Shown in pieces: positions 3,256 through 7,182 of a stretch of DNA of 64,000 nt. Where the stretch lies: contig JAJPCT020000022.1 in the NCBI GenBank assembly GCA_021323375.2, positions 1 through 64,000 on the forward strand, given 5' to 3'. A model generated the notes under the pieces. That model saw only the letters and a list, made by a program, of their open reading frames with translations. It made no database searches and was not told the DNA's origin. Each line of letters begins with the position of its first letter. Positions within the stretch are counted from its first letter, which is position 1. The DNA is from Candidatus Wolframiiraptor gerlachensis (lineage in GTDB: Archaea > Thermoproteota > Nitrososphaeria_A > Caldarchaeales > Wolframiiraptoraceae). Made by a program: the position numbers and the translations under genes.

Positions 3256-4146
3256 ATGGATGGGGAGCTTCTCGTTTATATTAATGGCGAGTATTATCCC
3301 AAGGGCAAGGCCGCGATCTCAGTCTATGATCATGGCTTCCTTTATGGGGACGGAGTCTTCGAGGGCATTAGGGAGTATGATGGCGTGGTCTTCATGCTAA
3401 GAGAGCATATTGACAGACTCTATGACTCGGCGAAGGCGATAATGCTCGAGATACCATTAACTAAGGATGAGATGATCAGCGCAGTTGTCGAGACTCTTAG
3501 GAGGAATGGGCTGCGGGATGCTTATATCAGGCTCGTTGTCACGCGGGGGGTTGGCGATCTCGGCCTAGACCCGAGGAAGTGTGGGAAACCCAATGTCATA
3601 ATAATCACGGAGCCGGCTCTAACGCTCTACAGCAGGGAGGCTAAGATGAGGGGGATCTCCCTTATAATATCATCGGTTAGAAGGGATAGGGTTGACGCGA
3701 CAACCCATCAGATAAAGTCCCTGAACTACTTGAACAGCATACTTGCGAAGCTTGAGGCGATAAATGCTGGAGCGGACGACGCTGTCATGCTCGATGATAG
3801 GGGCTTCGTCGCCGAGACAACCTCAACGAACATCTTTATGGTCAGTGATGATGTGATAGCGACGCCTCCCCCGACAACCGGCATTCTCCCCGGAATAACT
3901 AGGGCATTTGTGATGAAGCTCGCAAGAAGGCTCGGATACCAGGTCGAGGAGAGGGAGATCACGCCATTCGAGCTAATCACGGCGGATGAGGTTTTCGTGA
4001 CGGGAACCGGGGCCGAGATCCTGCCAGTAACAAAGATCGCAGGGAGAATCATAGGAGATGGAAAAGCTGGAAAGATAACTCTCAAGCTAATGGAGGAGTT
4101 TGAGAAGGAGTGCAGAAACCCGGCAAACGGCGTAAAAGTCTACTAG
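3256..4146 (+). CDS. ilvE: Branched-chain-amino-acid aminotransferase (class IV PLP)
   Basis: YINGEYYPKGKAAISVYDHGFLYGDGVFEGIREY; HQIKSLNYLNSILAK; ETTSTNIF. Confidence 0.93.
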   Translation: MDGELLVYINGEYYPKGKAAISVYDHGFLYGDGVFEGIREYDGVVFMLREHIDRLYDSAKAIMLEIPLTKDEMISAVVETLRRNGLRDAYIRLVVTRGVGDLGLDPRKCGKPNVIIITEPALTLYSREAKMRGISLIISSVRRDRVDATTHQIKSLNYLNSILAKLEAINAGADDAVMLDDRGFVAETTSTNIFMVSDDVIATPPPTTGILPGITRAFVMKLARRLGYQVEEREITPFELITADEVFVTGTGAEILPVTKIAGRIIGDGKAGKITLKLMEEFEKECRNPANGVKVY

Positions 4147-4191
4147 CCCCAGTAAATTCAAAATAGAGGCATAGCTTAGTCTCCCACAAGC

Positions 4192-4300
4192 GCCGGGGTC
4201 CCATAGCCTGGTAGTGGGTCGGCCTGGAGACCCTTATTCGGCTGCCCCAGAAAGCCGATGCCCCTTCCGGGGCGCGTGGGTTCAAATCCCACCCCCGGCG
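4192..4300 (+). tRNA. tRNA-Ser(GGA) with 23-nt intron (4230..4252) at position 37/38
   Basis: Acceptor GCCGGGG/CCCCGGC, D-arm CCAT/GTGG, anticodon stem TCGGC/GCCGA, loop CTGGAG|A, long variable arm GCCCC-TTCC-GGGGC, T-arm GTGGG-TTCAAAT-CCCAC, discriminator G. Bulges AGA and AAA flank a 4-bp CTGG/CCAG helix (BHB-like). Confidence 0.92.
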
Positions 4301-4502
4301 CATAAAGCCCTTAAACATCCTACCTTATCTCGCAAGCGGCATCCGCAATAAAACTTAACTTTTCAGCCACCACTGCCCAGAGAAATAGGGCAATACAGCT
4401 AAAATATTCTAAGAATAACCTTGTTATTAAACTTGTAGCTGCCTCATGTTCAACATGTTTATTAGAAGACAAGTTTGGTAAAGATGTTGGAGGTGTTGAC
4501 AG

Positions 4503-5268: not shown

Positions 5269-6609
5269 CTATTTTGTTTGCACGCATTTCTTGAAGTACT
5301 CCTCTAATTGCTCCACATACTTGTAGCCGCTATCCGGGAAAATTAGGACTATGTTCCCCCTTTCCGGGGAGATCTTTCTGAATGCCTTGAAGACAGCCCC
5401 GGAGCTCAATCCTATGAGGAGGCCCTCCCTCCGCGCGACCTCGATCACTCCCTCGATCGCCTCATCCAGCGTCACATCAATTACCTCGTCGAGCTCGACC
5501 ATATGTATCCATTTCATCCCGGATTCGATCCTCCTTATCCCTGGGATGACGTGGCCTTGAGCTGGTTGGACGCCTACCACCTTGACACTGTCGCCATACT
5601 TGCTCTTGAAGTAGAATGATATGGCGCTCATGTGCCCGGATGTTCCGAGCCCGCCGATAATGTAGTCGGGCTTAATGCCTATGGACTCGAGTTGTTGATC
5701 AAGCTCCCTAGCAGTATACTTTAGATGCACCTTAAAGTTCGCGTCGTTCTCGAACTGGTTCAGGTGGGTTGCGCCATCCCTTTTCGCAGATGCTTCCACC
5801 TCTGAGATAGCCTCCACTGTCAGGCTGACCGGAACCCTGACGATCTCGGCGCCTAGGGCCCTGAGGAATACATCGCTAGCCTTCTGGATCGTCTTCGGGA
5901 TGAAGAGCTTAACCCTTCTTCCTAGAGCATTTGCTATCGAGGCCAGCGCTATCCCAGTGTTAGTGGATGTAGCCTCATATAGCAGATCTCCGAGGGAGCC
6001 GCGGCTCAGCGCATCCATTATCATCGCCCAGCCGATCCTATCCTTTACACTATTGCTGAACGGGTTGAAGGATTCGAGTTTCGCATAAACCCCCCTATAA
6101 TCGGATGAGAATGATCTTAGCCTTACAAGGGGTGTCGGCCAGTTCTCCACGAGCAGGGACAACGTATCATCATAAACCCTAAGCATACGTCTGTCAAGCC
6201 TCACATCTCCGTAGAGACAATCCAAAGGCACATTTATTGATGGGATGTCGATCAGGTACCTTATCTCGAAATCGCGAAGGGGGAGCCTGCCCCGCCCAAG
6301 CCGGAGCTCCTCAAGCAGATCGCCCACCTTGAGGAACTCCCCTGAGAGCCGCTTAATCACGACTTGATCCTGGCTAATAAGCAATGCTGGAGCCTTAGAA
6401 GCCGATAGAAGGTCTAGTGCCTCGAGAACCTCAACCCCTCCAACAACCATCCCCGTATTCCTCTCGACTATTAGTGGCTTGTCGAGGCGCCGGCTTCTCA
6501 AGATACGGTCATAAGCCTCCATGACTGAGGCTAGGCCGACCTCGAAAACCCTCTGTAGGGAGGCAAGATCAACGAGCTCGATATTATTCGAGGCCTCCAC
6601 CACCTTCAA
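5269..6609 (-). CDS. PLP-dependent cysteine synthase / O-phosphoserine sulfhydrylase-like, with N-terminal degenerate SerK/ParB-like domain
   Basis: FNPFSNSVKDRIGWAM PLP Lys motif, EATSTNTGIALASIANALG, GGLGTSGH; N-terminus LDKPLIVERNTGMVVGGVEVLEALDLL aligns to neighbouring SerK-like ORF. Confidence 0.85.
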   Translation of the reverse strand: MKVVEASNNIELVDLASLQRVFEVGLASVMEAYDRILRSRRLDKPLIVERNTGMVVGGVEVLEALDLLSASKAPALLISQDQVVIKRLSGEFLKVGDLLEELRLGRGRLPLRDFEIRYLIDIPSINVPLDCLYGDVRLDRRMLRVYDDTLSLLVENWPTPLVRLRSFSSDYRGVYAKLESFNPFSNSVKDRIGWAMIMDALSRGSLGDLLYEATSTNTGIALASIANALGRRVKLFIPKTIQKASDVFLRALGAEIVRVPVSLTVEAISEVEASAKRDGATHLNQFENDANFKVHLKYTARELDQQLESIGIKPDYIIGGLGTSGHMSAISFYFKSKYGDSVKVVGVQPAQGHVIPGIRRIESGMKWIHMVELDEVIDVTLDEAIEGVIEVARREGLLIGLSSGAVFKAFRKISPERGNIVLIFPDSGYKYVEQLEEYFKKCVQTK

Positions 6610-6672
6610 CCTCGAGAGAGCTGGGGATGATGCGATTATAAGTTTTCCCGAGAAAATTTAAATTACGTTGTT

Positions 6673-7182
6673 ATGCACATGATGGGGGTAAACATGATGC
6701 TGCTTGGACCTGCTGAAGAATATGTGGATGATGATAGTCTTAAGGATGTCCTCCGAGAACTTTCATCCCAGATTGTGATACTTCCTATCAGCCTTCTGAA
6801 GCCTCATGAGGATGTTGATCCGGGTTTTGTCAGGGAGCTCGCCGAGGATATCAAGAGATGCGGCCTTCTCAAGAAGCCTATAGTTGTTGATAGCGAGACT
6901 CTGATCATAATAGATGGCCATCACAGGGTTGAGGCCCTAAAAAGGCTGGGATGTAGGAGGATCCCGTGCCTCTTCGTGAATTACCGCTCCCCCAGAATCG
7001 CGGTCCTAAGCTGGAGGGGAGGGGAGCCACTTTCAAAGGAGCTTGTCTTAAATGCCGGCCTAAGGGGAGAACTTCTGCCCCCAAAGACTACACGTCACAT
7101 CATAATGCTTCATGGAAAGACATGCCACATATCTGAGATACAGTTCGACATCAACATCCCGTACAAAGAACTAATACCATGA
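6673..7182 (+). CDS. ParB-like domain protein, probable free L-serine kinase (SerK)
   Basis: SLLKPHEDVDPGFVRELAEDIKRCGLLKKPIVVDSETLIIIDGHHRVEALKRLGCRRIPCLFV; ParB/Srx fold GHHR motif and LLPPKTTRH. Start may be 6694 (GGGGGT ribosome-binding site upstream). Confidence 0.78.
   Translation: MHMMGVNMMLLGPAEEYVDDDSLKDVLRELSSQIVILPISLLKPHEDVDPGFVRELAEDIKRCGLLKKPIVVDSETLIIIDGHHRVEALKRLGCRRIPCLFVNYRSPRIAVLSWRGGEPLSKELVLNAGLRGELLPPKTTRHIIMLHGKTCHISEIQFDINIPYKELIP

Follow-up and report, generated by a model that had tools for sequence, protein, structure and literature searches.

A degenerate SerK domain on a likely O-phosphoserine sulfhydrylase of Wolframiiraptor, encoded divergently from a compact SerK-family protein

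Among the described systems closest to the locus reported here, SerK of Thermococcus kodakarensis (TK0378; PDB 5x0b) is an ADP-dependent free serine kinase with a ~100-residue SerK_C domain (PF18231), and the O-phosphoserine sulfhydrylase (OPSS) of Aeropyrum pernix (CysO; PDB 1wkv, 3vsc, 6l0p; ApOPSS below) is the best solved relative of the PLP enzyme considered here. In Staphylococcus, the SerK-type kinase SbnI gives phosphoserine to the fold-II PLP enzyme SbnA, encoded in the same gene cluster, in staphyloferrin B synthesis; to our knowledge, SbnA has no dead kinase domain and makes a product other than cysteine. ATP-dependent full-length SerKs have been reported more recently from Desulfurococcales. 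They are of the longer form and are distinct from the SerK-family proteins without SerK_C that we call "compact SerK". The literature covers SerK, SbnI, OPSS and many fusions of ParB-fold domains (PMC5120207, PMC12704722); a search of the main texts of openly available papers found no SerK-OPSS fusion, no dead SerK domain on OPSS, no account of the N-terminal domain of ApOPSS and no compact SerK.

The window, that is, the whole stretch of 64,000 nucleotides analysed, comes from the genome of a heat-loving archaeon, a Wolframiiraptor, whose closest named relative is Candidatus Wolframiiraptor allenii (87% identity across the entire 446-aa protein described below). An earlier note on this DNA had pointed out a divergent pair formed by a SerK-family gene and a gene for a PLP-dependent sulfhydrylase, and both ORFs were found where it had placed them (Table 1). 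The AT-rich boxes between the two genes are conserved in two Wolframiiraptor relatives, and the intergenic region probably bears promoters for both genes. The divergent pair of compact SerK and OPSS is also present in two further members of Wolframiiraptor (L006, L007), and in a third (G003) SerK is divergent from a SufS-OPSS operon. In two Wolframiiraptor relatives, OPSS is directly preceded on its strand by a gene for a SufS-type cysteine desulfurase (L009:272-1501 and L008:2818-4071), which overlaps OPSS in L009, an arrangement that links cysteine synthesis to sulfur mobilisation. Elsewhere in the window, at 4082-4318 on the minus strand, a 78-aa ORF contains an RRGWDLNPR-type sequence, which is usually a spurious product; ARAGORN found no tRNA at this position.

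Table 1. Positions of the two genes and their functional parts in the window
Feature	Position	Strand	Basis
ORF with degenerate SerK domain fused to OPSS, 446 aa, TTG start	5269..6609	-	ORF call, homology
PLP-dependent OPSS catalytic domain, residues 145-436	5302..6177	-	phmmer to 1wkv, Pfam PALP
Arg359 = A. pernix Arg297, phosphoserine recognition	5533..5535	-	alignment; invariant among family members aligned; PMC5120207
Lys189, PLP lysine = A. pernix Lys127	6043..6045	-	alignment; invariant among family members aligned
Degenerate SerK (ParB-fold) domain, residues 1 to about 140	6190..6609	-	hhalign, AlphaFold2, Foldseek
GGVEV (residues 57-61) in place of kinase motif DGHHR	6427..6441	-	alignment to SerKs
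Divergent intergenic region common to both genes, 63 bp between starts	6610..6672	.	AT-rich boxes
Compact SerK-family, free-serine-kinase-like ORF, 169 aa, without SerK_C	6673..7182	+	ORF call, homology
His45-Glu46 = SerK His29-Glu30, catalytic Glu	6805..6810	+	alignment; 100% in 34 compact SerKs
DGHHR motif = SerK 69-73	6913..6927	+	alignment
Trp114 = SerK Trp102	7012..7014	+	alignment
KTTRH motif = SerK 221-225, past missing SerK_C domain	7084..7098	+	alignment

The plus-strand ORF does belong to the SerK family, as had been proposed. Its alignment to T. kodakarensis SerK falls into two blocks (18-103 and 204-229), which a family profile of compact SerK widens to 13-104 and 204-241 (E 7.5e-23), and the ORF retains the HE, DGHHR, W (W102 of SerK) and KTTRH motifs. 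SerK_C was found neither in this ORF nor in the compact form of A. pernix, and was found in a full-length archaeal control (L195). The alternative that the ORF is a chromosome-partitioning ParB was rejected: it scores 17.5 against a cut-off of 58.45 bits with TIGR00180, its weak ParB_N match is below the cut-off, and it has no HTH domain. Since ParB_N scores below the Pfam cut-off, surveys based on PF02195 could miss compact SerK. From its conserved motifs, compact SerK is predicted to have free-serine kinase activity.

The first ~140 residues of the 446-aa protein are confirmed as a genuine but catalytically dead SerK domain, with the SerK/ParB fold and with homology over the whole domain. 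Pfam gives no match in this part of the protein, but three independent lines (profile comparison, a profile search of the PDB and a structure model) concur. The earlier note had aligned an N-terminal segment to the SerK ORF, and this alignment could be both reproduced and extended: a BLASTP comparison of residues 1-148 with the SerK ORF gives E 8e-7 (75 residues, 28% identity), and hhalign of 12 such N-terminal domains (N-domains) against 14 compact SerKs gives a probability of 99.5% and E 8e-23 over 136 columns, a match that spans the GHHR region and continues into the KTTRH region, i.e. the whole domain and not just the segment originally quoted. A PDB profile search with 20 N-domains, free of SerK sequences, places SbnI at the top (E 1.5e-4) and ParB second. 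The possibility of an unrelated fold, raised in the same note, is ruled out by an AlphaFold2 model of the N-domain, made from an alignment without SerK rows (mean pLDDT 87.7), for which the nine best PDB matches in Foldseek are three SbnI and six SerK structures, followed by sulfiredoxin and ParB. SbnI, which is the top structural match, is thus a point of likeness to the Staphylococcus system.

What the N-domain has lost is the catalytic apparatus of the kinase. The absence of the GHHR motif had been noticed before, DGHHR being changed to GGVEV, and Phe22 stands where T. kodakarensis SerK has its catalytic Glu30. More generally, Glu30, the His-Arg of GHHR, Trp102 and the Thr and His of KTTRH are found in none of 21 N-domains; in compact SerK numbering, His45, Glu46, His84, Arg85, Tyr104, Val111, Trp114, Thr139 and His142 are present in 97-100% of 34 compact SerKs and in 0% of these N-domains. 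By contrast, positions important to the fold (core leucines, a glycine and a proline) are common to SerKs and N-domains at near 100%. A working kinase is ruled out for the N-domain because the catalytic residues are missing from all N-domains compared. The N-domains also carry conserved residues that set them apart (Y33, L67, S69 and F114), and a tree separates them and compact SerKs into two clades, both with 100/100 support. The dN/dS of the N-domain is 0.14-0.36, compared with 0.06-0.09 in the OPSS part and 0.09-0.11 in SerK (by the simple Nei-Gojobori method, with some pairs saturated), and the N-domain evolves faster than the remainder of the protein. Judged from these sequences, the dead SerK domain is a pseudokinase domain maintained under selection.

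The remainder of the 446-aa protein is a fold-II PLP domain with its Schiff-base lysine (Pfam PALP, E 3e-52; Lys189 aligned to Lys127 of ApOPSS), and it is the strongest of four PALP matches in the genome of the window. For residues 145-436, the best solved relative is ApOPSS (1wkv, phmmer E 4.8e-65), followed by cysteine synthases near 1e-37. Arg297 of ApOPSS is involved in phosphoserine recognition (PMC5120207) and is conserved in the window enzyme. However, OASS-B also has Arg (R210) at this position (PMC3805590), so that Arg359 is not exclusive to OPSS and is not by itself proof of substrate choice. No serine acetyltransferase (CysE) was found above the cut-off in the genome (35.9 against 210.65 bits). 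Taken together, the OPSS relationship, the conserved Arg297 and the lack of a CysE over the cut-off make phosphoserine the likely substrate, and the use of O-acetylserine, which the earlier note had named as an outcome that would count against it, is unlikely. As a side observation, a second PALP gene of this genome (G000:C25:30831-31746; L003, L004) is broken into two frames separated by 4 bp, through a frameshift or an assembly indel.

Of 398 Thermoproteota genomes sampled, 72 encode a compact SerK; A. pernix, the source of the model OPSS, is one of them, with the gene at L135:1423-1920. An OPSS of the present family also occurs in 34 of these 72, and in 20 of the 34 the two genes are at most 1 kb apart, mainly head to tail and often overlapping; for two random genes, we estimate that about one genome per thousand would show such proximity by chance. 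Compact SerK is present in 34 of 65 genomes with an N-domain OPSS, versus 2 of 67 with an OPSS lacking the N-domain (Fisher 3e-11, uncorrected for relatedness; the genomes are related, so that the counts are not independent, for six genomes the N-domain is scored only from frame length, and the totals include two weaker SerK hits adjoining OPSS). Thus, for about half of the genomes with an N-domain OPSS no compact SerK was found. Among four genomes of this kind, one encodes a full-length SerK in which DGHHR is intact, two encode longer SerK-like proteins whose motifs vary, and the fourth has a shorter divergent relative. Longer SerK-like proteins of 286-295 aa (L192 and L193), from Thermoproteota with an N-domain OPSS, have DGVHR or DGMHR together with KATRH and a C-terminal extension, and possibly represent another serine kinase branch. 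At L017:953-1255 (G018), an unrelated-looking 100-aa ORF takes the place of compact SerK upstream of OPSS and overlaps the OPSS start.

In some archaea, SerK and OPSS are encoded as a single chain. Five proteins of 572-598 aa (L040, L041/L118, L044, L120 and L126), the L041 chain having 573 aa, contain compact SerK, dead SerK and OPSS in this order without a break. Their kinase part has DGEHR instead of DGHHR, and when the chain is aligned with rows of separate SerK and OPSS, the SerK rows fall on the dead domain. In the tree, the fused kinase parts group among compact SerKs and the fused dead domains among N-domains, which indicates that the dead domain was already part of OPSS when the kinase was added. 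An assembly error in one genome was rejected as a source of the fusion, given that many genomes share the long N-domain OPSS and that five independent assemblies contain the three-part chain. A further protein, L043:4935-6305, starts like a three-part chain (MSENYGEIH) and then picks up with the closing stretch of that domain order's kinase (IERKVGVPLEFLKS), the kinase core seemingly having been cut out; the gap is either a real deletion or an assembly artefact.

We propose that the two window genes would carry out consecutive steps from serine through phosphoserine to cysteine. The front of the OPSS would be an ancient copy of SerK that lost its catalytic residues and kept its fold, and it may act as a scaffold or partner built into the enzyme and hold the active SerK beside the OPSS active site, in trans or, in the fused forms, in cis, so that phosphoserine would be handed over locally. 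The earlier note had offered docking for substrate channelling and allosteric sensing as alternatives. Co-occurrence, adjacency and the single-chain fusions of compact SerK and OPSS favour docking; in particular, the adjacent kinase gene and the three-part chains make the two steps look physically linked. On this evidence, the likeliest reading, to which we give an even chance, is a docking or scaffold module by which phosphoserine would be produced close to where it is used.

The main rival, which we consider rather unlikely, is that the domain is a structural relic of an ancient kinase-OPSS fusion and would only stabilise the OPSS dimer or shape the active-site entrance, with no contact to a kinase. 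A relic would fit the stepwise shortening of the N-domain across lineages, from ~140 aa in the window to ~85-100 aa in many lineages including A. pernix and to absence in others, and also the full-length model, which is confident as a single unit (pLDDT 90.8, pTM 0.90) and on which the A. pernix N-terminus superposes. Against it stand the strong co-occurrence and adjacency of N-domain OPSS and compact SerK, and the conserved signature residues, which are specific to the N-domain and absent or rare in SerK. The many genomes that have the N-domain without compact SerK again favour a relic, as does the retention of the dead domain in the single-chain fusions, where a tether would be redundant.

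Two other explanations were weighed. The dead domain could be an allosteric sensor that binds nucleotide, serine, phosphoserine or cysteine and regulates OPSS, since it has a ParB-type nucleotide-binding fold and since ParB-fold domains fused to other domains elsewhere can bind CTP, ATP or GTP (PMC12704722). The pocket residues of SerK (HE, HHR, Y104, W114 and KTTRH) are, however, lost in the N-domains, with no conserved polar replacement except Glu60; with the residues of the nucleotide and serine pocket gone, docking is preferred over sensing, and a sensor seems very doubtful. Alternatively, the compact SerK-like protein might have no serine kinase activity and act instead as an accessory or regulator of OPSS that binds nucleotides, phosphoserine being supplied from 3-phosphoglycerate. 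In favour of this, the 169-aa ORF lacks SerK_C and scores 64.6 bits against a cut-off of 380 with the NCBIfam SerK equivalog model, which includes that domain, and the genome has three dehydrogenases of the phosphoglycerate dehydrogenase superfamily, though none of the three is above the PGDH cut-off. Because 34 compact SerKs retain the catalytic motifs at 80-100% and match SerK both before and after the missing domain, we regard a non-kinase role as improbable.

The docking reading could be carried over to the crystallised enzyme. The short N-terminus of ApOPSS is homologous to the N-domain of the window, differing in that it is cut down to ~80 residues, and it appears to be a shortened form of this dead domain: the profile of short N-domains, including ApOPSS, matches that of the long N-domains at 97.9% and that of compact SerK at 96.9%. 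In Foldseek with the full-length window model, ApOPSS gives a query TM of 0.71-0.74 over 437-447 columns and cysteine synthases 0.54-0.59 over about 285-330; the longer and better superposition on ApOPSS therefore reflects extra agreement in the N-terminal part. The dead kinase domain would explain where the extra N-terminal part of ApOPSS came from. Extending this, we tentatively suggest, on what is still the doubtful side, an archaeal serine-to-cysteine complex in which an active compact SerK would pair with its dead paralogue in OPSS for direct phosphoserine transfer, the N-terminus of ApOPSS being a remnant of the docking module. The dead domain itself is a clear example of how a paralogue of one enzyme can be taken up, without catalytic role, into the enzyme that follows in the pathway, and the natural single-chain fusions make the proposed substrate handover directly testable with purified thermostable proteins. 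In A. pernix itself, a genome (G141) with an OPSS fragment 100% identical to ApOPSS encodes a compact SerK with all motifs; unlike in the window, its gene is not adjacent to OPSS and lies about 0.54 Mb away.
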